Origin: Alphaproteobacteria bacterium
Lineage (GTDB): Bacteria; Pseudomonadota; Alphaproteobacteria; UBA9219; RFNS01
Assembly: GCA_016124955.1 (NCBI GenBank)
Contig: WGMR01000009.1
Span: forward strand, 1 to 64,000
Direction of reading: 5' to 3'
DNA length: 64,000 nt
Part shown: piece by piece, positions 1 through 34,461 of the stretch
Layout of the letters: each line of letters starts with the position of its first letter
How positions within the stretch are numbered: position 1 is the stretch's first letter
Translations under genes and position numbers: made by a program
The notes under the pieces: generated by a model
Database searches by the model: none
Seen by the model: the letters and a program-made list of their open reading frames with translations, nothing else
What the model was told of the DNA's origin: nothing

Positions 1-1719
1 ATGCCCGAAAACGCTTCCCATCCATGGCTTACCCGCTACCCCGCCGCCGTTGACTGGAACGGCACGCTGCGCACCACGCCCGGCGCGGCGATGCTGGAGG
101 AGGCGGGTGTAAAATGGCCCGATAACCTGTGCATCGATTTTCTCGGCAAGACCTATACATATAAAGAAGTGGCGGCACTGGCTTCGCGCGCCGCCGCGGG
201 GCTGCAGAAGCTGGGCGTGAAGAAGGGCGACCGCATCGGGCTTTTCCTGCCCAACACGCCTTATTACGTGATCATGTACTACGCGATCTTGAAGTGCGGC
301 GGGGTGGTCGTGAATTTCAACCCGCTTTATGCCGAGCGCGAGGTCGGCAACATGATCAAGGACAGCGGCGCCGAGATTATGGTGACGCTGAATTTGCAAA
401 TGACCTACGGCAAACTGGCGAAATTGCTGGATACCACGCCGTTGCGCCATGTGATTGTTTGCCGGATGCAGGATATTTTGCCCTTTCCGCAAAACATTCT
501 GTTTTCAATCTTCAAGCGCGCGCAGATCGCGACCGCGCCGGACGATACCCGCCACACAGCCTATGCGCGCCTGATCGAAAACGACGGCAAATATACGCCC
601 GCCAGCGTGGACCCGGCGCGCGACGTGGCGGTTTTGCAATATACGGGCGGCACCACCGGCGTGCCCAAGGGCGCGATGCTTTCCCACGCCAACATCACCG
701 TGAACGCGCTGCAATCGGTGCTGTGGTGCCCGGAAGTGCGGCCGGGGCAGGAGCGCATGATGTGCGTGATCCCGTTCTTCCATGTGTTCGCGATGACGGC
801 ATGCATGAATTTCGCGCTGATGACCGGCGCGGCGATGATTTTGCTGCCGCGCTTCCAGATCGACCAGCTCGTGAAAACCATCCATAAAAAGCGGCCGACC
901 CTGTTCCCCGCCGTGCCCACCATTTACAACGCGATCAGCAATTATCCCGGGCTGGCGAAATACGATCTTTCCTCGATCCGTTATTGCATTTCCGGCGGCG
1001 CCGGGCTGCCGCAGGAAGTGAAGCGCGATTTCGAAAAATTGACGGGCTGTATCCTTGCCGAAGGCTATGGCTTGAGCGAAAGCGGCCCCGTTGCCAGCTG
1101 CAACCCGGTTTCGGGCGACAGCGGCGGGATCAATAAATCCGGTTCGATCGGGCTGCCGCTGCCGGGCACGGTGCTCGAGATTGTCAGCCTCGAAGATCGC
1201 GCGACGGTGCGCCCGCAGGGCGAAAAGGGCGAAGTTTGCATCCGCGGTCCGCAGGTGATGCTGGGCTACTGGAACAACGAAGACGAAACCGCGCACGCAC
1301 TTGTGCAAACGCCGGAAGGGCCACGGCTGCATACCGGCGATGTCGGGTATATGGATGCGGAAGGCTATATTTTTATCGTCGATCGTATCAAGGATATGAT
1401 CGCGGCCGGCGGATACAAGATATACCCCCGCCATGTGGAGGAAGCGATCTACCTGCATCCGGGGGTGGAAGAATGTATCGTCGCCGGCGTGCCCGATCCG
1501 TATCGCGGCCAGACCGTGAAGGCCTGGATCAAGCTGAAGGCCGGGGTCGAGCTGGACGAGCCGGCGCTGCTGCACTTTCTTTCCGATAAACTGTCGAAGA
1601 TCGAGGTGCCGAAGCTGGTTGAATTCCGTGCCGCGCTGCCCAAGACGCTGATCGGCAAGCTCGACCGCAAGGCGCTTCTGGCCGAGGAAGACAGCAAACG
1701 GAAATTGCAGGAAAGGTGA
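1..1719 (+). CDS. fadD: Long-chain acyl-CoA ligase (AMP-forming)
   Basis: This enzyme activates a fatty acid to acyl-AMP and then acyl-CoA. The 572-aa product carries the ANL-superfamily P-loop YTGGTTGVPKG at residues 214-224, then GYGLSESGP, the RLHTGDVGYMD block with the adenylate-binding Asp, and a C-terminal LIGKLDRK catalytic-lysine motif. The length is normal for FadD. The window opens exactly on the ATG, so the ribosome binding site and promoter cannot be seen. The stop overlaps the GTG of the downstream acyltransferase, which suggests the acyl-CoA may feed acylation rather than only beta-oxidation (inference). Confidence 0.93.
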   Translation: MPENASHPWLTRYPAAVDWNGTLRTTPGAAMLEEAGVKWPDNLCIDFLGKTYTYKEVAALASRAAAGLQKLGVKKGDRIGLFLPNTPYYVIMYYAILKCGGVVVNFNPLYAEREVGNMIKDSGAEIMVTLNLQMTYGKLAKLLDTTPLRHVIVCRMQDILPFPQNILFSIFKRAQIATAPDDTRHTAYARLIENDGKYTPASVDPARDVAVLQYTGGTTGVPKGAMLSHANITVNALQSVLWCPEVRPGQERMMCVIPFFHVFAMTACMNFALMTGAAMILLPRFQIDQLVKTIHKKRPTLFPAVPTIYNAISNYPGLAKYDLSSIRYCISGGAGLPQEVKRDFEKLTGCILAEGYGLSESGPVASCNPVSGDSGGINKSGSIGLPLPGTVLEIVSLEDRATVRPQGEKGEVCIRGPQVMLGYWNNEDETAHALVQTPEGPRLHTGDVGYMDAEGYIFIVDRIKDMIAAGGYKIYPRHVEEAIYLHPGVEECIVAGVPDPYRGQTVKAWIKLKAGVELDEPALLHFLSDKLSKIEVPKLVEFRAALPKTLIGKLDRKALLAEEDSKRKLQER

Positions 1720-2975
1720 CCCGGCCCATGCCTGACGCAGTACGTGCCGCGGTGCCATCGGTGCCTATGCGTCTGGTCGGGCTGGATGCGATGCGCAGCA
1801 TCGCGGTTATATGTGTTTTTCTTGTACACATCGATTTTGCGTGGCAGGGCCGTAGCACGGCCGATTGGTGGCATCTGTTTCCGTTTTCCTCTCTTTTCAA
1901 TACTGTAGCGATTATATCGGCGCTATATATACTGAGCGCCTATGTGTTGGCGCTGCCTTTTTTCGGGGGCCGCGCACCCGCCGTGCTGCCTTTTATGGTC
2001 AAGCGCTTTTGCAGGCTGTATATACCTTTGGTAACGACCACGTTACTGGTGTTTTTTTTGTATCACATAACGAATACGCTGGTGCTCGACCGCTATTGGG
2101 TGTTGTCGGATGGCGGGCAAATAATGTCTTCTTACCCCCATGTTGAGCCGACAGAACTTTTTGCCGATGACGCTATCAACCGGATTTTGATGCTGGGGGT
2201 TTTTTATGTAATGCCCACGCCATCTAGTTGGGAGCATGTTCTCGACCTGTTGTCCCTTGCCGGGACAAGTTCAAGCACAACATTGAACAGCGTTGTCTGG
2301 TCGCTGGTGCACGAGATTCGCCTGTCTATGGTTTTCCCGGCGCTCATTATACTGTGCCGTGATACGCGGCGTGCATTGTTGGTTGCCGCCGCGCTTTATA
2401 CGGCTGCGTCGGCCGCCATTGTCGTGACAGGCGATAGCGATATGTGGCTGCATCAGACTGAAAATTTCTGGGTCAGTTGGCTGATCACGCTGCGTTTTGC
2501 GGCATTTTTCATTATCGGCATATTGTTGGCGAAGCATAGCCCCGTTCTGGCGGAACGGATCGGCAAGATGGCGCGATGGAAGATCCTTGCGACGTGGTTA
2601 CTTGTTGTGTCGGTGTTTGCCTTGCCCGACTACCATGTGCTGGCGCCCCTGTTTGCCTTTGCGATTTCTGTGGCTGTTTGCCTGTGTGTGCACTCGGCCG
2701 GCACGCAAAAGATTCTGGAATGCACGCCGCTGCCATGGTTGGGCAAGACAACCTACAGTTTCTATATTCTGCATTTGTCGCTTCTTGCCATGGTTATGCA
2801 GAAGATGGCGGGCCAATTTCCCTACGGCGCTGTTTGCCTTACCGCCCTGGTGTTTACGTTTGTGCTATCGACCGCGCACTATTACACGGTTGAACTGTGG
2901 TCGATAAAAATCGGGCGCAGGCTTGGACGTATGGCCGCGGGCTTTCCCGGCCAGACAACCACGAGAAGCAAATGA
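1716..2975 (+). CDS. Acyltransferase 3 family membrane protein (copy 1)
   Basis: This is a polytopic inner-membrane O-acyltransferase of the OafA/acyltransferase-3 family, which moves acyl groups onto envelope glycans or lipids. Near the N terminus it has GLDAMRSIAV followed by LVHIDF, the position of the family's catalytic His. About ten hydrophobic segments follow across the 419 aa. The GTG start overlaps the fadD stop by 4 nt; an ATG at 1728 with AAAGGTGA upstream is an alternative. The gene is visibly more AT-rich than its neighbours and is a diverged paralogue of the next gene, for example SAYVLALPFF against SGYVMALPFF. The acceptor is unknown. Confidence 0.85.
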   Translation: MTRPMPDAVRAAVPSVPMRLVGLDAMRSIAVICVFLVHIDFAWQGRSTADWWHLFPFSSLFNTVAIISALYILSAYVLALPFFGGRAPAVLPFMVKRFCRLYIPLVTTTLLVFFLYHITNTLVLDRYWVLSDGGQIMSSYPHVEPTELFADDAINRILMLGVFYVMPTPSSWEHVLDLLSLAGTSSSTTLNSVVWSLVHEIRLSMVFPALIILCRDTRRALLVAAALYTAASAAIVVTGDSDMWLHQTENFWVSWLITLRFAAFFIIGILLAKHSPVLAERIGKMARWKILATWLLVVSVFALPDYHVLAPLFAFAISVAVCLCVHSAGTQKILECTPLPWLGKTTYSFYILHLSLLAMVMQKMAGQFPYGAVCLTALVFTFVLSTAHYYTVELWSIKIGRRLGRMAAGFPGQTTTRSK

Positions 2976-4186
2976 CGGCAGCAGGCGGTGTCCATGCGGC
3001 ACCCGGGCGCATTGCCGCGCTCGATGCCTTGCGCGGGCTGGCGGCGCTTTGCGTCTTTTTCACGCATACCTACAGCACGTGGCCGGGGCAATCGGTCGAT
3101 GATTTTATCAATTTCTTTCCGTTCTATGTTTTCATCAACCACAACGCTCCGATCGTGTTCTTTGTGCTGAGCGGTTATGTGATGGCATTGCCGTTTTTCG
3201 GGCCGCGCCCTTTGGGCTGGCTGCCTTTCGCGGCCAAGCGCGCGGCGCGGCTTTATGTTCCCTTTGCCGCTGCCACGCTTGTTTCGACCGTGCTTTTCTA
3301 CGCCTCTTCGATTACACCGCTGTATTTCACATGGACGCCGTGGAGCACCATGCCGGCCGAAAGCCTGATATCAACCATCAATCACACTCCGTTGACGCCG
3401 TGGCCGTGGCTGAATGATTTCCTGATGCTGGGGCGCCCGGGAATCGCGCATGCGCCGCTGACATGGAAAAGTATTTATGAACAGCTGGCGCTGACCGGCG
3501 TGACCAGTATGCAAACGCTCAATACCGTTGTGTGGGCGCTGGTGCATGAAGTGCGCATATCGCTGATCTTTCCGCTGCTGATTCCGCTCTGTCGTTCGAC
3601 CCCGCGCGCATTGCTGGCGGGTGCGGCGATGTTCGTTATTGGCACCGCCGGCATCGTGGCATCGGGGCAGAGCAATATGTGGCTGTGCGAAACCGAAAAC
3701 GCGTTCGTCAGCTGGTTGATCACGCTGCGGTTCATCCCATTCTTCATAGCCGGTATTTTGCTTGTCCGGCACCGCGAACAGATCGGCGCACTGATCGCGC
3801 ACATGCCGCGCTGGGGCGTGGCGGCGCTTTGGGTGGCGGTGATATGGGTGATGTGCCTGCCCACATACCATGTGCTCGATATTCTGTTCGGCGCGGCCGT
3901 GGCCACGATCGTGGCGTTGTGCAGTTTTTCACCTTGGACGCAGCGCGTTTTCATGGCAACGCCGTTGCCGCGGCTCGGGCGCGTGGCGTACGGGTTTTAT
4001 CTTTTACATTTGCCGGTGCTGTTTGTTTTAACTTCCAAACTTTCCACCGCATTGCCTTATTGGGGGATATGCGTCGCGATTTTTATCGTCAGCTTCGCGC
4101 TGGCGACGTTGCTGTATCACCTTACCGAGGTGCCTTCGAAGAAGCTCGGCTATTGGGCGGCGGCGCGCTTCGCGCGGCACGGCTGA
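2972..4186 (+). CDS. Acyltransferase 3 family membrane protein (copy 2)
   Basis: This is a second OafA-type acyltransferase of 404 aa, with ALDALRGLAALCVFFTH at the N terminus (catalytic His) and FVLSGYVMALPFFGPRP after the second membrane segment. It aligns with copy 1 along its whole length, with shared blocks such as VVWxLVHEVRxS and SWLITLRFxxFFI, so this is a tandem duplication. The start at 2972 is chosen because ATGA overlaps the previous stop and the family's N-terminal domain begins right after it. An in-frame GTG at 2897 would add residues buried in copy 1. Its substrate cannot be read from the sequence. Confidence 0.87.
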   Translation: MTAAGGVHAAPGRIAALDALRGLAALCVFFTHTYSTWPGQSVDDFINFFPFYVFINHNAPIVFFVLSGYVMALPFFGPRPLGWLPFAAKRAARLYVPFAAATLVSTVLFYASSITPLYFTWTPWSTMPAESLISTINHTPLTPWPWLNDFLMLGRPGIAHAPLTWKSIYEQLALTGVTSMQTLNTVVWALVHEVRISLIFPLLIPLCRSTPRALLAGAAMFVIGTAGIVASGQSNMWLCETENAFVSWLITLRFIPFFIAGILLVRHREQIGALIAHMPRWGVAALWVAVIWVMCLPTYHVLDILFGAAVATIVALCSFSPWTQRVFMATPLPRLGRVAYGFYLLHLPVLFVLTSKLSTALPYWGICVAIFIVSFALATLLYHLTEVPSKKLGYWAAARFARHG

Positions 4187-7011: not shown

Positions 7012-7746
7012 ATGATACGCAGGCTTTTCCCCCTTCTTGCCCTTTTCGTGCTTCTGTTTTCCGCCGCCCCTGCGCTGGCGCAAAGTAATTCGTGCACATT
7101 GGTAACAACCGGCACGAGCCAGGATATTACCGCCTTTACCACCTGCAAGCGCGTGACGAACAGTTCGGGCACCACGGTGTGCGCCGTGAGCAACGTGGAT
7201 TCGGCGCAGTGGGCAAGCTTTTACAACAACCCGCCGAGCGGCGTGACGATCGGGGAATGTTCGTGCACGCTGCCATGGGGCGGTACGATCAATAACGGGC
7301 AGGGTGTAACGGCCTATCAGGCCAGCTCTGTTGCCTGCGGCGCCAGCTGCGTATCGCAGACGCGGACCTGCACGTCGGGCGTGTTAAGCGGAACCTATAC
7401 GAACGCGAGCTGCAGCGTGGCGACCTGCGCCGGCTGGTGTTCAAGCGGCGTTTGTTATTATCAGGCCTCGTCCGGTCAATCCTGCAACACTTTCTGCGGC
7501 AGCCATGGCGGTTGCGACGCCACGGGCGTATCAGGCATGGGCGGCAACTGGACGACTTGCGGCACGGTCGGCGCGCATTTCGGCGCGACGGCGGCTACCA
7601 ACGGGGTGGATTGCTCCAGTTTAGGTGCGATGGGCTGTATGTATTATACCTATTATGGCACCAGCTATTATCGTTGCACGCAGGGCGGCACCTGTGACGC
7701 AACCCCGGCGAGCGTTTATGTTCGTTTCTGCGCCTGCAACAGCTAG
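7012..7746 (+). CDS. Secreted cysteine-rich protein
   Basis: A classic signal peptide ends at ALAQS (about residue 23). The mature region is rich in Cys, Ser, Thr, Gly and Tyr, and its many cysteines imply a disulfide-stabilised extracytoplasmic protein. One block, with W-x-x-F, then PPSGV, then Cys, matches a block in the PA14 protein at 45012-45965. A second block, SQTRTCTSGVLSG followed by YTNASC, resembles repeat units seen in bacterial surface or adhesin-like proteins. No catalytic motif is visible. It lies directly after the lipoprotein gene. Function is unknown; a surface role is inferred. Confidence 0.72.
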   Translation: MIRRLFPLLALFVLLFSAAPALAQSNSCTLVTTGTSQDITAFTTCKRVTNSSGTTVCAVSNVDSAQWASFYNNPPSGVTIGECSCTLPWGGTINNGQGVTAYQASSVACGASCVSQTRTCTSGVLSGTYTNASCSVATCAGWCSSGVCYYQASSGQSCNTFCGSHGGCDATGVSGMGGNWTTCGTVGAHFGATAATNGVDCSSLGAMGCMYYTYYGTSYYRCTQGGTCDATPASVYVRFCACNS

Positions 7747-8471: not shown

Positions 8472-9794
8472 ATGCCCGCCCCTGCCGCCGCAAAAACTGT
8501 TGGCGGTTTCCTGTTCATGGGCCTGCTGGCCCTTGTATCGATGTTGCGCGGGCAGCCGGGCGCCTGCGGTTTTTCCAATATATGGTGGCGCCATAACTGG
8601 TTGACGGATTACGAACACGGCTTCGTGCGCCGCGGGCTTGCGGGCACGCTGGCGAAACCGTTTCTGAGCGATCCCGCCGCCACTACTGACTTTATCGCCG
8701 CCGCGACGATTGCCGTGAACATGCTGGCCGTCGCCGGCGTCGCCGTGCTTTTGCTGATTGTGTGGCGTGGGCGCGACCGTGCGCTGTTCGCAGCCTTCGC
8801 CATTTTTGTGGCGACAACGCCCATGCTGCCCTATCTGATGCCTTATGATGGGGCGCTGGACGGCTTTATCCTTGCCTTATGCACCGCCGCGACGCTGGCG
8901 TTGATGCGCGGCCATGCATGGGTCTTTGCCGCGCTTTTTGCAATCGGCGCGCTGGTGCATGAGGAAGCCGTGGTGGTTTTGCTGCCGCTGGCCGGCTGCG
9001 CCGCGCTTTTGGGAACGCGCGGCGGGAAGAAAGCCGCGTTTGGCGCGTGCGCCGTGGCCGCCTTTGTTTTCGTTGCCGGCATTTTGAACCCGGCCACCAT
9101 GGACATGGCGGAAAAATATGTGCTTTACGGCATGCCGCCTTCACTGGCGCAGGATATCGTAGCGTATCTTAACCTGCCGCTAGCCGACAACGTGCGAGAA
9201 ACGCTGACGCTGTGGCGCAATTTTCCCGCAGGCAGCCTGATTGCCGCGCTTTACCCGCTGTTTGCAGTTGTGCCGTTGCTGGCGCTTGGCGCGTGGCGTT
9301 TGCGCGCGCCCGGTGCGGGCTGGAAAATGTGGCTTGGCGGGGGCGTGCTTGTGATTTTGCCTTATGGCGCGCTCGCGCTCGCGCTCGATACCTCGCGCCT
9401 TGCCGCCTTCGCGACTTTTTCCAATGCGCTGCTTGCGGTCTATGCGCTTACCCGCCTTGCCGCGCCCGCTGCTGCTGCCGCGCCGCCCGCGCCTGTGCGC
9501 ATCGCCCTAGCCGCGCCGGCCTTTGTTTTATATTGTGCCGCGCCGGTCATGCTGCTGTGGCCGTTCGGGCTGTGCCAGGTGAATATTGCCTATCACCAGA
9601 AAATGCATGCGCCGCTGGCCGACGCGGCCCGCGCGCTGCAGGCGCATATTGGCAGGCAGGCAGGCGAACTGCCACCCGCGCCGCCGCGGCCCGCAAGCGC
9701 GGACCCGCATGACCGCGATACGCTCAAGCGCATGAGCCACGGTTTGCGGGCCTGCCTGTCGGTGGAAGGCTGCGCTGCCGCCGCGCCGCCCTGA
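8472..9794 (+). CDS. Polytopic membrane protein A, GT-C-like (paralogue of 13595-14905)
   Basis: The 440-aa product has about ten membrane helices. Diagnostic blocks are YEHGFVRRGLAG near residue 50, PMLPYLMPYDG, the VHEEA loop, DTSRLAAFATFSNAL, and C-terminal WPFGLCQVNIAYH. The same blocks recur in the same order in the protein encoded at 13595-14905. Conserved acidic and His loop residues in a polytopic protein suggest a GT-C-type glycosyltransferase or flippase, but no family could be assigned with certainty. It opens the putative glycolipid cluster. Confidence 0.66.
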   Translation: MPAPAAAKTVGGFLFMGLLALVSMLRGQPGACGFSNIWWRHNWLTDYEHGFVRRGLAGTLAKPFLSDPAATTDFIAAATIAVNMLAVAGVAVLLLIVWRGRDRALFAAFAIFVATTPMLPYLMPYDGALDGFILALCTAATLALMRGHAWVFAALFAIGALVHEEAVVVLLPLAGCAALLGTRGGKKAAFGACAVAAFVFVAGILNPATMDMAEKYVLYGMPPSLAQDIVAYLNLPLADNVRETLTLWRNFPAGSLIAALYPLFAVVPLLALGAWRLRAPGAGWKMWLGGGVLVILPYGALALALDTSRLAAFATFSNALLAVYALTRLAAPAAAAAPPAPVRIALAAPAFVLYCAAPVMLLWPFGLCQVNIAYHQKMHAPLADAARALQAHIGRQAGELPPAPPRPASADPHDRDTLKRMSHGLRACLSVEGCAAAAPP

Positions 9795-9803
9795 CCGGCC
9801 ATT

Positions 9804-9836
9804 TGCCAAAGCCGGACCGGCTTGCCATCTTTGGCA
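9804..9836 (+). repeat. Intergenic inverted repeat
   Basis: The arms TGCCAAAG (9804-9811) and CTTTGGCA (9829-9836) are perfect complements. A second nested stem, AAGCCGG-A-CCGGCTT, lies inside. There is no following T-run, so this is not a standard intrinsic terminator. It sits between polytopic protein A and the SDR gene and may modulate expression inside the cluster. Confidence 0.4.
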
Positions 9837-9862
9837 TTCGCTTGCTGCATAAGGCATAAAAC

Positions 9863-10909
9863 ATGGTTCATTTGGTCACCGGCGGTTCGGGCTTTGTGGG
9901 CGCGGCGATTGCGCGCGCGCTTTTGGCCGACGGCGCGCATGTGCGGGTTTTTGACCTGTGGCGCGCTCCCGATTTGCCGCAGGGCGTTTCCTTTGTGCAG
10001 GGCGATGTGACCGATGCCGCTGCCGTTGGTGCGGCGATGCAGGACGTAACACACGTGCATCACAACGCCGCGCTGGTGCCGCTGTCCAGGGACAGACGGC
10101 GGGTTTGGCATGTGAATGTGGAGGGCACGCGCACGGTTCTGGAAGCCGCGCGGCGCACGAACGTGCGAAGATTCGTGCATATGTCATCGAGCACCGTGTT
10201 TGGCGTGCCCGAAAACGTGCCGGTGACGGGCGCATCGCCGCGCGTGCCGTTCGAAGCCTATGGCAGGGCAAAAAAGGCGGGCGAAGACCTTGTGCTGGCG
10301 GCAATGGAAAGCGGGTTCCCTGCCGCCGTGATAAGGCCGCGCACCGTGATCGGCCCCGGACGGCTCGGGATTTTCGCGATCCTGTTTTCATGGATCCGGG
10401 CGGGCGCCAACATTCCGGTGTTCGGCAGCGGCGATAATTTGTTCCAGTTCGTACATGTCGATGATATCGCGCAGGCCGGTCTTTTGTGTTGCGCGCGCAA
10501 GGCGCGCGGCGCTTTTAACATAGGCGCAGAGAATTTCGGCACGCTGCGCGGCGATCTGGAATTTCTGTGCCGGTATGCGGGAACGGGTTCGCGCGTTATA
10601 AGTTTGCCTTCCGGGCCCGCAATCGCCGCGCTGCGGCTGCTCGATATCATGCGGCTTTCGCCGCTGGCGCCGTGGCATTACCGCACCTATCACAAACCGT
10701 TCTATTTCGATATGGAGCCGGCGCGCAGCATGCTTGGTTTCCGCGCGCGCCATGATAACCGCACGCTTCTGACAGAAGGTTATGACTGGTATTGCCGCCA
10801 TGGCGATGGCGAAGCCGGGCACGATGCGTCGCTGCACAAAAGGCCCGTACGGCAAGGCATGCTGCATTTCGTGCGTTTTTTGCTGCGCATGGGGGGAAAA
10901 GCATCGTGA
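9863..10909 (+). CDS. NAD-dependent epimerase/dehydratase-type SDR
   Basis: This is an extended short-chain dehydrogenase, with Rossmann motif TGGSGFVG at residues 6-13 and an acidic residue (VFD) after beta-2 that favours NAD(H). It has the SSSTVFG serine region and catalytic Y133-x-x-x-K137 (YGRAK). At 348 aa it fits the family, which includes sugar epimerases, 3-beta-HSD and dihydroflavonol reductases. ATG 9863 has AAGG upstream. The gene ends in TGA overlapping the GTG of the next gene. In this cluster it could carry out the reduction half of a sugar or lipid epimerisation (inference). Confidence 0.85.
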   Translation: MVHLVTGGSGFVGAAIARALLADGAHVRVFDLWRAPDLPQGVSFVQGDVTDAAAVGAAMQDVTHVHHNAALVPLSRDRRRVWHVNVEGTRTVLEAARRTNVRRFVHMSSSTVFGVPENVPVTGASPRVPFEAYGRAKKAGEDLVLAAMESGFPAAVIRPRTVIGPGRLGIFAILFSWIRAGANIPVFGSGDNLFQFVHVDDIAQAGLLCCARKARGAFNIGAENFGTLRGDLEFLCRYAGTGSRVISLPSGPAIAALRLLDIMRLSPLAPWHYRTYHKPFYFDMEPARSMLGFRARHDNRTLLTEGYDWYCRHGDGEAGHDASLHKRPVRQGMLHFVRFLLRMGGKAS

Positions 10910-11232
10910 CGCGCCGGGCCATCATACGGGCCGCGCTGCCCGGCTGGCCCGTGCTTGACGCGCCCGCACGGGATGCCGTGTGCGGCGATATCGCGGCCTA
11001 TATTGATGCGGCGCTGGCGCGCGCGCCGTTTTATACCCGCGCCGCCATCTGTACGCTCGATATTCTTTTTGCACTGTTTTCGCTGTTTCGTCCGGCAACG
11101 CCCGCGCTGCTTGAGCGATGGGAGAATGCATGGCAGCCCGCGCGCATGCATGTGCGATTTTACCGCACGCTCGCGCTGCTTGCATGGTGCGATGACGGGC
11201 GCGTGCAGGCTTTGTGGGAGCGCGCGGCATGA
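10906..11232 (+). CDS. Small protein coupled to GMC oxidoreductase
   Basis: The 108-aa product starts at GTG 10906. The start is supported by GGGGGA nine nt upstream and by a GTGA overlap with the SDR stop. It has no signal peptide and one amphipathic-to-hydrophobic middle segment (LDILFALFSLF) flanked by helices. It overlaps the following GMC gene by 4 nt, so the two are made together. By position it resembles accessory subunits that accompany GMC dehydrogenases, but I see no family signature. Confidence 0.6.
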   Translation: MTRRAIIRAALPGWPVLDAPARDAVCGDIAAYIDAALARAPFYTRAAICTLDILFALFSLFRPATPALLERWENAWQPARMHVRFYRTLALLAWCDDGRVQALWERAA

Positions 11233-12707
11233 ACGGCGATTTTTTGCTTTCGTTGCCGGCCGCGCTGGATTGCGAGGTGCTGGTTGTCGGCTCCGGCGCG
11301 GGCGGCTGCATGGCGGCTGACGCGCTGGCGGGCGCCGGGGCGGACGTGCTGATGATCGAGGAAGGGCCTTATGTGCCGCAAAGCGCCATGCCGAAGACAA
11401 GCGCAAGCGAGGTGCAGGCGATGTGGCGCGGCGGCGGGCTAACGGCCGCATTCGGCCCCGTCCCGGTTGCGTATGCCGAGGCGCGCTGCGTCGGCGGCGG
11501 CACCGAAATTAACAGCGGGATCATGCAGCGCGTGCCGGATGCGTTGCTCGAAGAATGGGCGCGTATCCATGCGCTGGCGGATTTCGGCGCGGACGCGCTG
11601 CGGCCCTATTATGACAAGGTGTGGGCCGAACTTGTGCCGGCCGCACCGCCGGAAACCGGCCCGCCGGGCCGCGTAGCCGGTTTGTTGCAGCTTGGCGCGC
11701 AGCGCAAGGGCTTGCGCCATGAAGCGCTTGTCCGCGCCGCGGATGGCGGGCGCAGACATTCGATGACGGCAACGTTATTGCCGCGCGCGCAGGCACGCGG
11801 CATGCGGCTTGTGGCGCAATGCGAGGCGCGAAAAATCATATGGAAGCGCGGCGCGGGCGGCCGGGCGGTTGTGCGGGGCGTGGAAGCGCATGCGACCGGG
11901 CCGGACGGCCAGCGCCGCCGCGTGCATATTGCGTGCAAGCAACTTTTCCTTGCCGCGGGCGCGATCCATACGCCCGCGCTGCTTCGCCGCAGCGGCATTA
12001 CGGAAAATATCGGGAACAGTTTGCGGCTGCATCCTGTGCTGAAAGTTCTGGCCGATTTCGGTGAACCCACGGGCGCCATGGCCGAACGCGTGCCGCTGGC
12101 GGCGATAACGGAATTCATGCCTTCGCTGCGCATGGGCGGCTCGGTTTTCACGCCGGGGTTTTTTGGCATGGCGCTGGCGGAAAACTGGCGCGACCGCGCC
12201 GCGCTGTTGCCCCGTCACCGCGATTGCGCGCTTTATTACACGATGGCGCGCGCGCAGGCGCGCGGGCGGGTGCGGCCATTGCCGGGCATGGCGGAGCCGC
12301 TTGTGCGCTATGCGCCGACCGATACCGACCGCGCCGCGCTGGCGCGCGGGCTGGAAAGCCTTGCCGGTGCCTTGCTGGCGGCAGGGGCGCGGCGCGTTAT
12401 CCCTTCGCTTGCTGGGCACCCTGGCTGGGACAGCGAAAGTGCGATCGATGCGATGCGGATCATGGAAAGCGCGCCCGCGCGGGCGCAGATGATGGCGATC
12501 CATCTTATGGGCAGCTGTCCCATGCACGGGGACCGCGCGCAGGGCGCGGTGGACCCGTTTGGCCGCCTTTACGGGTTTAAAAATGCCGTGATCGCGGATG
12601 CCAGCGCGATGCCGGAAGCGCCCGGGGTCAATCCGCAGGCGACGGTGATGGCGCTGGCGGCGCGGGCCGCCGCTTCGTGGCTGGCAGTGCGCGGACAGAG
12701 CGTGTAA
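11229..12707 (+). CDS. GMC-family FAD oxidoreductase
   Basis: This flavoprotein oxidises an alcohol group. The FAD-binding motif VVGSGAGG lies at about residues 18-25, followed by an Asp/Glu-ending beta-2 (MIEEGPYV). GGGTEINSG matches the GMC flavin-attachment region, and the C-terminal block runs through MGSCPMHGD, VIADASAMPEAPGVNPQ and TVMALA. The usual active-site His is represented by H of SCPMHG. There is no signal or Tat motif, so it acts in the cytoplasm or on the inner face of the membrane. The start at 11229 uses GGGAG and an ATGA overlap. The substrate is unknown; a polyprenyl-linked sugar is my inference from the neighbours. Confidence 0.85.
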   Translation: MNGDFLLSLPAALDCEVLVVGSGAGGCMAADALAGAGADVLMIEEGPYVPQSAMPKTSASEVQAMWRGGGLTAAFGPVPVAYAEARCVGGGTEINSGIMQRVPDALLEEWARIHALADFGADALRPYYDKVWAELVPAAPPETGPPGRVAGLLQLGAQRKGLRHEALVRAADGGRRHSMTATLLPRAQARGMRLVAQCEARKIIWKRGAGGRAVVRGVEAHATGPDGQRRRVHIACKQLFLAAGAIHTPALLRRSGITENIGNSLRLHPVLKVLADFGEPTGAMAERVPLAAITEFMPSLRMGGSVFTPGFFGMALAENWRDRAALLPRHRDCALYYTMARAQARGRVRPLPGMAEPLVRYAPTDTDRAALARGLESLAGALLAAGARRVIPSLAGHPGWDSESAIDAMRIMESAPARAQMMAIHLMGSCPMHGDRAQGAVDPFGRLYGFKNAVIADASAMPEAPGVNPQATVMALAARAAASWLAVRGQSV

Positions 12708-12717
12708 ACAGGAAATG

Positions 12718-13602
12718 ATGAAAAACAACGCCCCGCAAACAGGCATTTTGCCGCCGCTTATCGCCATCATGCGGCCGCAGCACTGGATCAAGAACACACT
12801 CGTGCTGCTGCCCGCTTTTTTCTCCGGCCGCATGGCGGATACGGATGCCGCGCAGCTAGCGATGGCCTTCGTGCTTTTCTGTATCGCCGCCAGCGCGGTT
12901 TATGTGTTCAACGACCTTTGCGACCGCATGGCTGATGGCGCGCACCCGCGCACGCGCCGCCGCCCGCTGGCAACGCAAAAACTTTCGCCGCGCGCGGCCG
13001 CCATTTTTCTGGCCGTGCTTTTGGCCGGTGGCGCGGCGCTTATGTACGGCATGCAAGCCCCTGCGGCCTTCAATGCCATTGTGCTGTGTTACCTTGGCGT
13101 CAATGCGGGGTATTCGCTGGGGCTGAAACGCGTGCCGGTGCTTGAACTTTTTTTGCTGGCGAGCGGGTATATTTTCCGGCTTTTTGCGGGCGGCAGCGTG
13201 ATAGACGAGCCGCTAACCGGCTGGATCGTCGCGGTAACGGGCTTGCTCGCATTGATGCTTGCGGCCGGCAAGCGGCGCGGCGATATCGCGGCGGTCGAAA
13301 AGGATAAAGCCATGACGATGGCGGCAACCTATGACCCCGCCTATCTTGGCGTTATCATTACCGTGTTGGCGGCTGCGCTGGCCGCGACCTATGTGCTTTT
13401 CTGCATTTCGGACTATGCGCAAACCCGGTTCGGGCCGCATGTGACATGGTCCGCGCTGTTCGTGCTGTTCGGGATCATGCGTTATCTGCAGCTTGCGCCT
13501 GCGGGCGGGGGCGATCCGGTCGCGCTTTTGTACCGCGACCGGCCCATGCTGGCCTGCGCCGCCTTGTTCGCGCTGTGCTTCGCGGGGCTGATATATGGGT
13601 AG
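12718..13602 (+). CDS. UbiA-family prenyltransferase, DPPR-synthase-like
   Basis: The 294-aa integral membrane protein belongs to the UbiA group that includes decaprenyl-phosphate phosphoribosyltransferase. It has MRPQHWIKNTLV near the N terminus, the Asp motif NDxxDxxxD at residues 65-73, HPRTRRRPLAT after it, and the second-half blocks YSLGLKRVPVLE and GYIFRLFAGG. In that subfamily the enzyme joins a phosphosugar (PRPP) to polyprenyl phosphate. ATG 12718 has better AGGA spacing than ATG 12715. It lies between GMC oxidoreductase and polytopic protein B, overlapping the latter by 8 nt. Confidence 0.85.
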   Translation: MKNNAPQTGILPPLIAIMRPQHWIKNTLVLLPAFFSGRMADTDAAQLAMAFVLFCIAASAVYVFNDLCDRMADGAHPRTRRRPLATQKLSPRAAAIFLAVLLAGGAALMYGMQAPAAFNAIVLCYLGVNAGYSLGLKRVPVLELFLLASGYIFRLFAGGSVIDEPLTGWIVAVTGLLALMLAAGKRRGDIAAVEKDKAMTMAATYDPAYLGVIITVLAAALAATYVLFCISDYAQTRFGPHVTWSALFVLFGIMRYLQLAPAGGGDPVALLYRDRPMLACAALFALCFAGLIYG

Positions 13603-14905
13603 TGGCACGCCGCGCCCGCACCGGCGGAATGCCAGGGTTTTTTTGCTGTTTCTGGCCGCCGTAACGGCTTCCGCCTTTCGTGCGCAGCCGAACGCGTTTG
13701 AAGCGTTCGGCGGCTGGTTCAGGTATTTCTGGTACGTTACCTATGAATTTGGCTATGTGCGCCGCGCGCTTTTGGGCGCGCTTGCGGCGCCGTTCATCGA
13801 TGCGGCCGACCCCGCCGCCTTTATCAATGCCGCAACCCTTGTATTCAATGCCGCCGCGCTGTGTGCCGCCGCGCTGCTTTTGCTGTTCGCGCTTCATCGC
13901 CTTCCCCGGCCCGCATTCTTTTGTACGCTCGGGTTTTTCCTTGTTTCTCCGCTGCTGCCCTACCTGATCATTTACCCGGGCATCCCCGATAACATCATCA
14001 TTGCCGTTTGCATCTGTGCGACGCTGGCTATTCTGAGCGGGCGCATAGTTGTTTTCATGGCGCTGCTTCTGGCGGGCATGCAGGTGCATGAAATGGCGGG
14101 GCTTATCCTGCTGCCTGTTGCGCTGTGTGTTGCGTGGTTCGGGCGTACGCGCGCGCAGCGCGCCGCTTTCCCCGCCGCGCTGGCGGGCTTCGTCATATGT
14201 CTGTTTGCCGCCGCGATCAGCCCTGCCGCCGTGCAATTCATCGATGTTTTCGGGCAATACGGCATGACGCCGGATTTCGGCAGCAAGGTTCTGGCCTATC
14301 TGAATAAATCCTCGCTCGCGAATTTTTACGACATGGCCTATTTCTGGGAAGATAATTTGCCGATGACGGCGGCGGGTTGCCTGTATCCGCTTTTGGCCAT
14401 TCTGCCGCTGTGGTTTTGCGCGGTGCCCGGGCAAGGCCATGCGGGCGGGCCGCGACGGCTGGGCTTGCCCGAACTTGCCGGGTTTGCGGCGGCATTTACC
14501 TTTCCCTATTTCGCGGTGCTGGTGGGCTACGATTATTCGCGCTACGCTGCGCTGGCGACGCTGGGAAACTGTCTTGTGCTGGTCTGTTTTTTTTGTCTGC
14601 ACGCGCCGCCGCGGGAAAAAGCTGCCTCCGTGCCCGGCAAGACCCCGCTGGCGCTGTTTGCGGCCGCCGTTTTCCTGTATTGCGCGATGCCGCTTTACTG
14701 GTTCTGGCCGAACGGGCTGATCCCCGTCAATCTCGGTTACCACAAGGCATTGCACAACCCGCTGGCCGCCGCGATGGAGCGGCGCGGATTTTTGAAAGAT
14801 GCGAACGTGACGGACCTTGTTTTCATGCGCGTACAGCGGCAGGCGGATCGCATACTTGAAGAAGATTACGCGCCATTGAAAAAAGCAAACGGCGTGGAAA
14901 ACTAG
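13595..14905 (+). CDS. Polytopic membrane protein B, GT-C-like (paralogue of 8472-9794)
   Basis: The 436-aa product has about ten membrane helices. It shares with protein A the ordered blocks YEFGYVRRALLG, PLLPYLIIYPG, VHEMAG, YSRYAALATLGN and FWPNGLIPVNLGYH. It is the last gene of the cluster and overlaps the UbiA gene, so translation is coupled. The paired paralogues at the two ends suggest two related transfer or flipping steps. The stop overlaps the convergent PPTase gene by 4 nt. Family assignment as a GT-C enzyme is tentative. Confidence 0.66.
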   Translation: MGSGTPRPHRRNARVFLLFLAAVTASAFRAQPNAFEAFGGWFRYFWYVTYEFGYVRRALLGALAAPFIDAADPAAFINAATLVFNAAALCAAALLLLFALHRLPRPAFFCTLGFFLVSPLLPYLIIYPGIPDNIIIAVCICATLAILSGRIVVFMALLLAGMQVHEMAGLILLPVALCVAWFGRTRAQRAAFPAALAGFVICLFAAAISPAAVQFIDVFGQYGMTPDFGSKVLAYLNKSSLANFYDMAYFWEDNLPMTAAGCLYPLLAILPLWFCAVPGQGHAGGPRRLGLPELAGFAAAFTFPYFAVLVGYDYSRYAALATLGNCLVLVCFFCLHAPPREKAASVPGKTPLALFAAAVFLYCAMPLYWFWPNGLIPVNLGYHKALHNPLAAAMERRGFLKDANVTDLVFMRVQRQADRILEEDYAPLKKANGVEN

Positions 14906-30036: not shown

Positions 30037-30114
30037 AAATAAGAACGTTGATTCCGTGCCGGCATGGTGGCGCTTGCCGGTCCGCTTAGCATCCAAGCGA
30101 AAGCGAGGTCACCA

Positions 30115-30672
30115 GTGTCGTTTGAAGCCTGCCCGGCGCTTGTTTTAAATGCGGATTACCGTCCGCTTAGCTATTTTCCCCTGTCGTTATGGTCGTGGCA
30201 GGATGCGGTGAAGGCCGTTTTCCTCGATCGCGTCAGCATCCTTTCCGAATATGACCGCACCGTGCATTCGCCCAGCTTCGAGATGAAGTTGCCGAGCGTG
30301 ATCGCGCTCAAGGAATATATCCCCTCCATGCGTTATCCCGCCTTTACGCGGTTCAACGTGTTTTTGCGCGACAGTTTTTCATGCCAGTATTGCGGCGAGC
30401 GGCACAACACGCATGACCTGACCTTCGACCATGTGATCCCCAAGATGCGCGGCGGCCGCACGACATGGAACAATGTTGTAACCGCGTGCAGCGCGTGTAA
30501 CCTGCGCAAGGGCTCGCAATTGCCGCGCCAGTGCAACATGCATCCGCGCCACGATCCGTGGCGGCCGACCAGCATGGAATTGCAGGAAAACGGCCGCGCC
30601 TTCCCGCCCAACTTTTTGCACCAGAGCTGGCGGGATTATCTGTACTGGGATACCGAACTGGACCCGGTTTAA
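30115..30672 (+). CDS. HNH endonuclease
   Basis: The 185-aa product has a Cys-x-x-Cys zinc knuckle (CQYCGERH), the HNH core DLTFDHVIPKMRGG with NNVVTACSACN, and the alphaproteobacterial N terminus ALVLNADYRPLSYFPLSLW. GTG 30115 is chosen because GAGGT is 5-6 nt upstream and the conserved domain begins at once; ATG 30064 would add 17 weakly conserved residues. It is common and chromosomal in this class, and is not itself evidence of a mobile element, though the RM island starts just after it. Confidence 0.85.
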   Translation: MSFEACPALVLNADYRPLSYFPLSLWSWQDAVKAVFLDRVSILSEYDRTVHSPSFEMKLPSVIALKEYIPSMRYPAFTRFNVFLRDSFSCQYCGERHNTHDLTFDHVIPKMRGGRTTWNNVVTACSACNLRKGSQLPRQCNMHPRHDPWRPTSMELQENGRAFPPNFLHQSWRDYLYWDTELDPV

Positions 30673-30829
30673 TTTATTGATCCACAGTTTATAAATATTT
30701 GCAGAAACAATTTTTGTTTGCCTAAACACACTGAGACAGGTTACTATGTTGCCGAAATGTTCTCCTTTCTGGTTCCAAAATTAACGTTCCCAGTTTTATT
30801 AAATCTGTCTGCCAACCAGAGGCTAAAAT

Positions 30830-31705
30830 ATGCGGCACGCATCAACACTGCTTGGGGAATTTCTGGGTGATTTGAACATGTATTCCGCCCAAAAATCACC
30901 GATCACCTCGTGCAATGATCTGGATTTTGTAAACAGTGTATTTGAAGGTGATTGCTTGGATGTCATGAGGCGTATTCCTGATCATGTGATTGATATGATT
31001 TTATGCGATCTTCCCTATGGGACGACACAAAATGCGTGGGATTCCATCATAGATCTTGGTAATTTGTGGAGTCATTACAGGCGCATTCTAAAGCCAAATG
31101 GCGTTGTTGTTCTGACGGCGCAGGGAATGTTTACCGCAAAACTTATTTTATCAAACGAAACATGGTTCAAATACAAAATTGTTTGGGAAAAATCCAAATC
31201 TACGAACTTTCTCAATGCCAGGAAACAACCACTGCGGAAACATGAAGATGTCTGTGTGTTTTATAACAGTCAACCAACTTATAATCCGCAAATGCGAAAT
31301 GGAACGCCGTATGATAAAGGCGTTAGGAAAAATCAACTGTCCGGAAGCTATGGCGATTTTTTGCCTTGCCATGTGAAAAGTGATGGCGCACGCTACCCGG
31401 TGGACATTGTATATTTTAAGACAGCCGAGAGTGAACCCGAGAGAGAAGTTTGGCACCCAACACAAAAACCAGTCGACTTGGGAAGATATCTTATAAGAAC
31501 GTTTACAAATCCGGGTGATGTTGTTCTGGATAATGCATGCGGCAGCGGTAGTTTTCTAGTTGCCGCGCATCTGGAGGGCCGTCATTACTGCGGCATTGAA
31601 AAAAATCAGGAAACACATCTTTTTAAAAACAGGAAAATTGATTACATCAAGGTTATTGAACGTCGCTTACGTGCCCATGAGGCAGTGCCAACCTTGATAC
31701 GCTGA
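30830..31705 (+). CDS. Site-specific DNA methyltransferase (beta-class, N6-A or N4-C)
   Basis: The 291-aa protein has motif IV CDLPYG (about residue 62) before motif I NACGSGSF (about residue 237), the beta-class order. VWHPTQKP precedes motif I as in Dam-like and CcrM-like enzymes. It should methylate adenine, or N4-cytosine, in a specific site. The start at 30830 has AGAGG upstream; ATG 30878 is possible. Base composition is much lower in GC than the flanks. The stop overlaps the start of the next gene by 1 nt, so it forms a two-gene RM unit. Confidence 0.87.
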   Translation: MRHASTLLGEFLGDLNMYSAQKSPITSCNDLDFVNSVFEGDCLDVMRRIPDHVIDMILCDLPYGTTQNAWDSIIDLGNLWSHYRRILKPNGVVVLTAQGMFTAKLILSNETWFKYKIVWEKSKSTNFLNARKQPLRKHEDVCVFYNSQPTYNPQMRNGTPYDKGVRKNQLSGSYGDFLPCHVKSDGARYPVDIVYFKTAESEPEREVWHPTQKPVDLGRYLIRTFTNPGDVVLDNACGSGSFLVAAHLEGRHYCGIEKNQETHLFKNRKIDYIKVIERRLRAHEAVPTLIR

Positions 31706-34461
31706 TGCCTAGCGTGCATTACAACGAACGCGCATGGGGTATTGAACTTATCAGCCGTATAAATGCTTATTGTACAAACAGAACAAAGCCAATAATTGCT
31801 GCAGGCGGTGAGCATACGCTTAGGGGAAGCAATGGGAGTTTGTTTCCGGACGTACTTTTGTTTGGAGATGAACAAGGCGTGCGTGTACGGCATGGATGGG
31901 AGCTCAAATTTCCTGATACTCCGGTTTCTGACCCTGATTTTTACAGCAACGCAGAGAAGAAAGCCAACCGTCTTCAGGTTAACAGCTTTCTTTTGTGGAA
32001 TGTGAATGAAGCCGTTCTTTACATCAAGGGTGTAAATGGGGTTTTTCTGGAACGCAAAAGGTGGGGACCATTAGGTGTTACCGAACGAGAGATGGTCAGA
32101 GAAAGCATGCCGCTTTGGGAGGCTCTTCTTGGAGAGATTTTGGACGACCTCAATAACTTTTTCATGAACGGTGAGTTGAAGTCGTCAGCTTTGCACGAAA
32201 TTATTGATGACGGGTTCATGGCAGGATTTATTGACGAATTTAAAGGTGTGGCTGCGGGTTCTATAAAAAATATGGCCAACACATCCGCTTTTATAGAAGC
32301 GGAAATACAGCGGTGGTGGAATCTCAATGCATCGGAGTACGGCAAAAAACCAGGTGGCAATGTTGAGTACAATATTATTGCCATGGTCGCTTTGACTGGG
32401 TGGCTTAACAGGTTTCTATTCTGCCAATATTTAAAAAGTTTTCATCAAGTTGCTGTTGTTGTAGAGACGGTATCTTTAGGATGCAGTTTGACAGAAGCAG
32501 CAAGAATTTTCCAAAATATTTCTGTACAATGTGACTTCTTACAGATTCTCTTTCCGACCATAGCAAGTGAACATATCGGAGAAGAGGCATGGCAGGGCTT
32601 GTGTCAAGTTAACGACCTTTTGACCGAAGCGGGCCGTGTTTCCGTTTCGCAGGAGGTTTTGCAGAGGGTCATGGAGAACGCTTTGCAACTTTCCCGCCGC
32701 AAAGCGGCAGGCCAATATGCAACACCCAATGCACTTGCGTGTTTTCTAGTTGGGCTGGCTGTGGAGAACCGCATCGGACACGTCATGGACCCTTGCTGTG
32801 GAACCGGTACAATAGTGCGCGCTGCTTACGAACTGAAACGCAGCCGTAACCAGACCGTTGAGGGCGCCCTTTCGACACTTTGGGCTTCGGATAAATTCCA
32901 ATTCCCTTTGTCATTATGCACCATGGCACTTGCAGATCCTCAGGCTATGGGCAGTGTTGTGCAAATATTCTGCAGCGATGTGTTTGATTTACGAGAAAAC
33001 AATGCCGTTGTTCTCGCAGATCCCAATACAGGTAATAAGATTTCTCGTATGCTTCCTTTAATGTCTAGCATTGTTTCCAACCTGCCATTCGTAAGATTTG
33101 AGAGCATTGAACATGATGATCAAGGAATAAGATTATTTTTACAGTCCATAGAAGAAGAGGATCAAATATCCAAAAAATCCGACTTGTTTGCTTATATTAT
33201 TGTTTATTTAGAAAAATTGCTGCAACCGCAAGGCAGGGCTGGTGTCATTGTTTCGAACGCATGGCTGGGTACGGAGTGGGGAAAGAAGTTGCGTGCCGTG
33301 ATGGCGCAACGTTTCTGTATAAGAACTGTCGTTATATCTGGTGCCGGGAGGTGGTTTGAAAATGCTGAGGTTGTTACAACATTGCTTGTGCTCGAGAAAA
33401 AATCTGAACATACAAGGCAGGAGCCAGTAAAATTTGTAACAACCCTTAAACCGTTATCGGATTGGAATGTGGACAAAACGAACGCAATGATTGCCGATGT
33501 ACTTGCATCTACAGGTGATCATGTCAGTGATCTTTTGCGCATTAACACTTACTCTGATGAAGAGCTGGCAGAAATCGAACAGGTATGTGCTAGCTGGGCA
33601 TGTTTCTTTTCTGATGTTCGCTGGATTCTGGATATTAGAACCAGTTTGACCAAGGTTTCCAGTCTGTTCCAGATAGCACGCGGACAACGGAGAGGCTGGA
33701 ATAACCTGTTCTACCCTCAGCAGGGTCACGGGATTGAATCTGACTACATTGTGTCGGTTCTTAGAACCATGGCTGATGTTCATACTTACATGGCAAGATC
33801 TGATGTAGAGGCGTTCTGTTGTTCAGAAAGTATTGAGGATCTGGAAAGGCTCGGACATCATGGGGCCGTCCGTTGGATAAGAAGTTTTGAGGGAGCCTAT
33901 AATAATAGTGGCCAGCCGCTAACGGAAGTTCTGGCCAGTCCGGGGTGCTATTGGTATGAAATGGCGCCAAACACGTTGGCGGATATAGTGTTGGGCATGA
34001 ATCCAGAAGATCGTCTGTTTGCAGCCATGATGAGTCGACAGGGTTTTGTTGATCAACGACTTATCAGAATGACAAAGCTTTCCAGTCATCTTGATGTAGC
34101 GTTGGCGCATGCACTTCTTAATACTACGTTGGGCATGTTCTTTATAGAAGCGGCTGGCTTTGGCAGGGCTCTTGGTGCTTTAGATTTGCAACCAACAAAG
34201 CTTAGAAGTGTATTTTACATGCTTAATCCGGCTCTATTAGCAGAACAACAACGCAGTGATATAAAAGAAGCATTTGATGTAATAAAAAACAGAGATGTTT
34301 TACATGTAAGGGATGAGCTACATATGGAAGACCGGAGAAACTTGGACCGAACAGTCTTGGAAGCTTATGGACTAGAGAATTACGAGGGCAAGATTACGCG
34401 CTCATTGTTGGAGCTGTATAGAATAAGAAAGGCCGTGAAAGAGAACGCAACAGACAATTAG
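31705..34461 (+). CDS. Fused restriction nuclease / N6-adenine methyltransferase (type IIG-like)
   Basis: The 918-aa single-chain enzyme has an N-terminal PD-(D/E)XK nuclease (E14, P48-D49, E66-L-K68) and a central helical region. A gamma-like N6 methyltransferase follows, with QYATP (motif X), DPCCGTG at 362-368 (motif I) and NLPF at 459-462 (motif IV, in place of NPPY/F). A C-terminal target-recognition-like region follows (about 620-918). The layout matches type IIG or BREX/PglX-like enzymes; no PglW/Z or BrxC genes are nearby, so type IIG is preferred. It is AT-rich. The stop overlaps the coq7 stop. Confidence 0.8.
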   Translation: MPSVHYNERAWGIELISRINAYCTNRTKPIIAAGGEHTLRGSNGSLFPDVLLFGDEQGVRVRHGWELKFPDTPVSDPDFYSNAEKKANRLQVNSFLLWNVNEAVLYIKGVNGVFLERKRWGPLGVTEREMVRESMPLWEALLGEILDDLNNFFMNGELKSSALHEIIDDGFMAGFIDEFKGVAAGSIKNMANTSAFIEAEIQRWWNLNASEYGKKPGGNVEYNIIAMVALTGWLNRFLFCQYLKSFHQVAVVVETVSLGCSLTEAARIFQNISVQCDFLQILFPTIASEHIGEEAWQGLCQVNDLLTEAGRVSVSQEVLQRVMENALQLSRRKAAGQYATPNALACFLVGLAVENRIGHVMDPCCGTGTIVRAAYELKRSRNQTVEGALSTLWASDKFQFPLSLCTMALADPQAMGSVVQIFCSDVFDLRENNAVVLADPNTGNKISRMLPLMSSIVSNLPFVRFESIEHDDQGIRLFLQSIEEEDQISKKSDLFAYIIVYLEKLLQPQGRAGVIVSNAWLGTEWGKKLRAVMAQRFCIRTVVISGAGRWFENAEVVTTLLVLEKKSEHTRQEPVKFVTTLKPLSDWNVDKTNAMIADVLASTGDHVSDLLRINTYSDEELAEIEQVCASWACFFSDVRWILDIRTSLTKVSSLFQIARGQRRGWNNLFYPQQGHGIESDYIVSVLRTMADVHTYMARSDVEAFCCSESIEDLERLGHHGAVRWIRSFEGAYNNSGQPLTEVLASPGCYWYEMAPNTLADIVLGMNPEDRLFAAMMSRQGFVDQRLIRMTKLSSHLDVALAHALLNTTLGMFFIEAAGFGRALGALDLQPTKLRSVFYMLNPALLAEQQRSDIKEAFDVIKNRDVLHVRDELHMEDRRNLDRTVLEAYGLENYEGKITRSLLELYRIRKAVKENATDN

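Follow-up and report, generated by a model that had tools for sequence, protein, structure and literature searches.

Which sugar would be made by a gene cluster that couples a UbiA-fold protein to a flavoenzyme of the GMC family? This question is raised by a stretch of 64,000 nucleotides from an alphaproteobacterium (contig WGMR01000009.1, GCA_016124955.1, positions 1 to 64,000; hereafter the window), in which six plus-strand genes lie between positions 8472 and 14905 in the order GT1, SDR1, small, GMC, UbiA, GT2. An earlier note had described this cluster, with the correct coordinates and gene content, as a candidate non-orthologous counterpart of the decaprenyl-phospho-arabinose (DPA) pathway or a route to a different lipid-linked sugar. 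We find that the locus is a conserved and, as far as found, unnamed variant of lipid-linked pentofuranose synthesis, and that the operon probably makes and uses a polyprenyl-phosphate-linked pentofuranose. The observed basis is the families to which UbiA, GMC, and the short-chain dehydrogenase/reductase (SDR) SDR1 belong, their intact active-site residues, their co-localization, and the absence of DprE1 and DprE2, the enzymes of the DPA route.

Gene content of the UbiA-GMC cluster

The UbiA protein (12715 to 13602, plus strand; 295 amino acids, without a fused HAD phosphatase) matched the Pfam UbiA family (E 8.7e-20), and its best NCBIfam model was decaprenyl-phosphate phosphoribosyltransferase (NF008978, E 4e-55), compared with E 4e-12 for the 4-hydroxybenzoate models and E 1e-11 for the haem O models. 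The only PDB matches were 8j8j and 8j8k, structures of the Rv3806c-type enzyme. Profile, PDB match, and tree thus agreed with the earlier description of a DPPR-synthase-like protein, and no grouping with 4-hydroxybenzoate or haem O transferases was seen. The protein was further aligned to Rv3806c, with residue roles taken from PMC10994848. Nine of the 11 residues at the phosphoribosyl pyrophosphate (PRPP) site of Rv3806c were retained (R22, K28, Y70, N73, D77, R90, Y138, K143, and Y157, corresponding to R20, K26, Y63, N66, D70, R83, Y133, K138, and Y152), among them the 5-phosphate-binding lysine, K28 of Rv3806c. By these sequence tests, the cluster UbiA is a predicted polyprenyl-phosphate phosphoribosyltransferase of the DPPR/PPPRS group. 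The genome (1.93 Mb, 99% complete) encodes a second, COQ2-like UbiA that is distant from the cluster UbiA in the tree, and the cluster protein is therefore not needed for ubiquinone.

The flavoenzyme gene (11229 to 12707, plus strand; 492 amino acids from the ATG at 11229) encodes both GMC domains (GMC_oxred_N, E 4e-28; GMC_oxred_C, E 3e-20), and the catalytic pair His425/Asn468, numbered from this ATG, is invariant in 18 homologues. Its predicted model adopts a confident GMC fold (predicted local distance difference test [pLDDT] score, 87), with choline oxidase, fructose dehydrogenase, and other GMC enzymes as the best PDB fold matches, at 16 to 17% identity. Domains, residue pair, and model together confirmed that the flavoenzyme is of the GMC type and not of the VAO fold. 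SDR1 (9863 to 10909, plus strand; 348 amino acids) is an extended NAD epimerase/reductase (E 2e-42) with intact TGxxGxxG and YxxxK motifs (Y133, K137), in keeping with its earlier assignment as an NAD-type SDR. Between them lies a gene with a GTG start that overlaps both neighbours (10906 to 11232, plus strand; 108 amino acids); its product matched no family in Pfam. A similar small protein is encoded directly upstream of GMC in many related clusters, and it is likely a partner or membrane anchor of GMC.

The flanking genes GT1 (8472 to 9794; 440 amino acids) and GT2 (13595 to 14905; 436 amino acids), both on the plus strand, encode polytopic membrane proteins that are paralogues (38% identity), each with nine hydrophobic segments by simple hydropathy and a common YExGxVRR motif near the N terminus. 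They are candidate lipid-sugar-dependent transferases, their GT-C-like nature being unproven. A third paralogue is encoded elsewhere in the genome (G000:C7:273544-274779), and a weak relative was found in one other of 385 alphaproteobacterial genomes. A GT2-like match near a UbiA gene at another locus (L147) was rejected, as it resembles an MFS transporter, a judgement made by reading the sequence without a search. The tight coupling described earlier was borne out: most neighbouring genes overlap (SDR1-small, -4 nt; small-GMC, -4 nt; UbiA-GT2, -8 nt), GMC and UbiA are 7 nt apart, and the largest gap, 68 nt, follows GT1. SDR1, small, and GMC are joined by GTGA and ATGA overlaps.

Elsewhere in the window, two tandem Acyl_transf_3 membrane acyltransferases are encoded about 4 kb upstream of the cluster (1716 to 4183); members of this family are frequent decorators of surface glycans. 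A region of low GC content (30064 to 34458; about 46% versus about 62%) encodes an HNH endonuclease, an N6_N4 DNA methylase, and a 918-amino-acid protein with N6_Mtase/Eco57I domains, and looks like an acquired restriction-modification island.

Distribution of the GMC-SDR1 module

A GMC alignment scanned against 84,980 species genomes returned 43 loci. SDR1 was present in the fetched DNA around all 32 close GMC homologues, at 36 to 62% identity, and beside none of 10 distant ones; UbiA lay within the fetched DNA at 17 of the 32. The close homologues span Proteobacteria, Ilumatobacteraceae, and Aminicenantes. The conservation of GMC with SDR1 is far beyond chance, and the genes co-occur across genomes, a point on which the earlier note had let its reading depend.

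Nearly all related clusters also encode a second extended SDR (SDR2). A Cys-rich motif found in many GMC relatives was considered as a correlate of SDR2 and rejected, because Polynucleobacter and Ilumatobacter lack the motif yet keep SDR2. Recurrent in the related clusters are HAD-UbiA fusions, DUF218 proteins, SMR/ArnE-like proteins, and divergent PAP2 proteins, together with PMT_2 or AftD-like transferases, so that the HAD-UbiA or PAP2, SMR/ArnE-like, and PMT_2 or AftD-like genes supply the other expected pathway steps there. Several clusters of Ilumatobacteraceae continue past the module with a gene for a very large membrane protein; the sole one tested (L035) matches AftD (PF11847, E 4e-84).

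The module is also carried by symbiotic plasmids of Rhizobium, Sinorhizobium, and Mesorhizobium, such as pNGR234a (L059, 290335-319762) and the plasmid of L060, with UbiA, SDR2, SDR1, SMR, small, and GMC genes. In NGR234, it lies near nodSU and includes a 658-amino-acid protein of no Pfam family. The NGR234 genes carry the locus tags NGR_RS31055 (UbiA), NGR_RS31060 (SDR2), NGR_RS31070 (GMC), and NGR_RS31085 (SDR1). We found no paper that names this NGR234-type module. Its identity with noeCHOP was considered and rejected, as noeCHOP is described as encoding mycobacterial-type enzymes. Wherever the surroundings of SDR1 relatives (E<=1e-20) were checked in plasmid records, a gene for GMC or for a DPPR-type UbiA lay close by. 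SDR2 (E<=1e-20) was found in the nine plasmid records that also hold GMC and in no others.

SDR1 also occurs with UbiA alone. We selected 70 alphaproteobacterial genomes that encode a DPPR-type UbiA; their five best SDR1 matches (E<=5e-42) were without exception located in UbiA loci, and a gap separated these matches from background. SDR1 relatives stand beside DPPR-UbiA, with no GMC or DprE1 detected, on the three haloarchaeal plasmids examined and in Streptomyces and Nonomuraea, and one further genome (G104) has UbiA and SDR1 without GMC. The haloarchaeal plasmids (L163, L164, L166) may hold a lipid-pentose system of archaea: besides DPPR-UbiA and the SDR1 relative, they encode a PHP-domain protein, a DolP-mannose-type transferase, and an LPG-synthase-TM protein. 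On pAB510f of Azospirillum sp. B510 (L167), the neighbour of an SDR1 relative is a distant GMC gene; GT9 and LPG-synthase-TM proteins are also encoded there, and no UbiA is nearby.

Proposed pathway and product

In the pathway that we propose, UbiA would move 5-phosphoribose from PRPP onto polyprenyl phosphate, and the 5-phosphate would be taken off by an unlinked phosphatase. SDR1 and GMC, the latter partnered by the small protein, would then remodel the ribofuranose via oxidation and reduction of ring hydroxyls to an epimer or an oxidized pentose, more likely not D-arabinose. The lipid-linked sugar would be flipped by a protein encoded outside the cluster (relatives have an SMR/ArnE-like gene for this role), and GT1 and GT2 may act as a pair to pass the sugar to a cell-surface glycan. 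The substrate, the order of steps, the product, and the transferase role are those that we infer from the gene set.

Several observations weigh against this proposal. The UbiA score of 187 bits falls below the NCBI curated equivalog cut-off of 207, and two PRPP-site residues are changed (K87 to T80 and Q135 to N130). GMC and SDR1 are without known chemistry, and their roles are predicted from sequence. A search of the window genome found no SDR2, though nearly all relatives have it, and a search limited to the six cluster genes found among them neither a phosphatase nor a recognizable flippase. Finally, GT1 and GT2 matched no GT-C family in a profile search, only EpsG below the cut-off, and modelling of GT1 from the two paralogous sequences gave no usable structure (pLDDT 42), which leaves their earlier description as GT-C-like unconfirmed.

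The relation to DprE1 and DprE2 bears most directly on the product. A DprE1 query that recovered the PDB entry of DprE1 at E 5e-84 gave no match in the window genome at E<=1e-5, and there was none for DprE2 at E<=1e-20; Polynucleobacter, Palleronia, Rhodoblastus, and Rhizobium mesoamericanum likewise have no DprE1 above background and no DprE2. Among the 385 Alphaproteobacteria, DPPR-UbiA (66 carriers) and DprE1 (51 carriers) occur together in 43 genomes (Fisher P value of 6e-32, not corrected for shared descent), within 10 kb of each other in 35 of the 43, and the window UbiA has GMC and SDR1 as neighbours instead of the usual DprE1. Only 2 of the 385 genomes have GMC, in one case as a distant match (32%) with no UbiA close to it; because GMC is so rare in the class, the class co-occurrence statistics rest on DprE1, not on GMC. 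Along a quick UbiA tree with many weak branches, the partner label switches between GMC and DprE1 at least six times. Within one genus (g7) of the same order as the window genome, one member (G012, only 89% complete) has SDR1-small-GMC-UbiA, and a congener (G006) has UbiA-DprE1. A secreted-looking Cys-rich protein of no family is encoded upstream of the window cluster (7012 to 7746), and its relative at L095:3029-3655 on the minus strand (35% identity, E 8e-15) adjoins the UbiA-DprE1 pair of G006.

The exchange within this genus, together with the absence of DprE1 and DprE2 from the window genome in a class where DPPR-UbiA and DprE1 co-occur so strongly, speaks for a non-orthologous DPA route, in which GMC would oxidize C2 of polyprenyl-phosphate-ribose and SDR1 would reduce the product to polyprenyl-phosphate-arabinofuranose as DprE1 and DprE2 do. 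That GMC genes of Ilumatobacteraceae adjoin an AftD-like arabinosyltransferase points the same way. However, all seven Ilumatobacteraceae or actinobacterial genomes tested carry DprE1 and DprE2 besides the GMC module, which would be redundant, and at one locus (L043) the module adjoins UbiA-DprE1-DprE2, with one UbiA seen in the stretch. SDR1 also accompanies UbiA in haloarchaea and Streptomyces without any GMC or DprE1, and SDR2 is left unexplained; we consider this route unlikely. That haloarchaea, Streptomyces, Nonomuraea, and G104 have UbiA and SDR1 but no GMC speaks for SDR1 acting alone as an epimerase like ORF13 of Citrobacter youngae O2, a single SDR that decides xylofuranose instead of ribofuranose (Kelly et al. 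2024, PMC11127046), with GMC adding an independent oxidation (keto or uronic) or, with SDR2, a second epimerization. The restriction of SDR2 to the nine GMC-holding plasmid records agrees with such an added step, and ORF13, also an SDR, has its motifs in common with SDR1 (PMC11127046). Any homology of SDR1 to ORF13 would be putative, and the window has GMC yet no SDR2; we regard this possibility as less likely than not. Both readings are specific forms of the proposed pentofuranose pathway, and the likelihoods given to the three overlap.

A third explanation departs from that pathway altogether: the genes could act on another lipid (a hopanoid, a sterol-like compound, or a fatty alcohol), with UbiA as an ordinary prenyltransferase. 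In its favour, 3-beta-HSD and HpnA models do pick up SDR1, cholesterol oxidase models pick up GMC, and these families are found in lipid pathways. Nevertheless, the cluster UbiA falls among DPPR synthases, with the 5-phosphate-binding lysine retained, SDR1 goes with DPPR-UbiA in both bacteria and archaea, and the neighbours in relatives are glycan genes, making this explanation very improbable.

Returning to the lipid-linked pentofuranose, a pentose other than arabinose is somewhat better supported, because Ilumatobacteraceae also keep DprE1 and DprE2 and because SDR1 pairs with UbiA alone elsewhere. Judged by distribution, SDR1 resembles an enzyme of the ORF13 type, to which GMC would add a step. 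The earlier proposal of a DPA-like pathway largely stands as a lipid-linked pentose set with a non-DprE1 oxidase, and its alternative of a different lipid-linked sugar gains somewhat over DPA as the product. DprE1/E2 homologues accompany arabinose in such systems (PMC11127046). More speculatively, GMC and SDR1, with SDR2 where present, might make a pentose that is new as a lipid-linked donor, for example lyxofuranose (C2 and C3 inverted), which is not known in solved glycans (PMC11127046), or a keto or oxidized pentofuranose, for uncharacterized glycans of free-living bacteria and symbiotic-plasmid rhizobia; we regard this as somewhat doubtful. The known diversifiers of polyprenyl-phosphate-ribose are a single SDR and the pair DprE1/DprE2, of which DprE1 is a major target of tuberculosis drugs. 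A conserved GMC-based module would be a third way; it occurs in several phyla, well-studied nodulation plasmids (pNGR234a, for instance) carry it, and in Ilumatobacteraceae it stands next to AftD-like enzymes. NGR234 would offer a ready genetic system for finding the sugar.

Comparison with known systems

Bacterial GMC sugar dehydrogenases, such as fructose dehydrogenase and the gamma-alpha FAD glucose dehydrogenase, have a small subunit. The window flavoenzyme shares their GMC fold, and the small gene directly upstream parallels that subunit, although its product matches no Pfam family and the fold matches reach only 16 to 17% identity. The mycobacterial DPA pathway (Rv3806c, Rv3807c, DprE1, DprE2, Rv3789) has the same first-enzyme family and likewise a flavoenzyme and an SDR downstream. 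In contrast, the window flavoenzyme is GMC and not VAO/FAD_binding_4, and its SDR is extended and not of the DprE2 type. Nod-factor D-arabinosylation by Azorhizobium noeCHOP and IRBG74 noeCNHOP (PMC2443382, PMC5080398) provides another UbiA-led lipid-pentose operon in a rhizobium, but noeC, noeH, and noeO are described as related to mycobacterial DPA enzymes, and the NGR234-type plasmid GMC module is a separate set.

The three-component pentofuranose systems of Citrobacter youngae O1 and O2 (PMC11127046) share with the window an entry through a PPPRS-type UbiA, auxiliary epimerases (in the window a candidate one, SDR1), and polytopic transferase candidates. Unlike them, the window cluster encodes neither a MATE flippase, whose place SMR/GtrA proteins take in other systems, nor a HAD phosphatase fused to UbiA, its transferases are not recognizably GT-C, and its GMC flavoenzyme and small partner go unmentioned in the main text of that paper. 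UbiA pentofuranose systems are diversified by auxiliary epimerases (Kelly et al. 2024, PMC11127046), and the window set fits these three-component systems, with the GMC flavoenzyme as an undescribed auxiliary enzyme.

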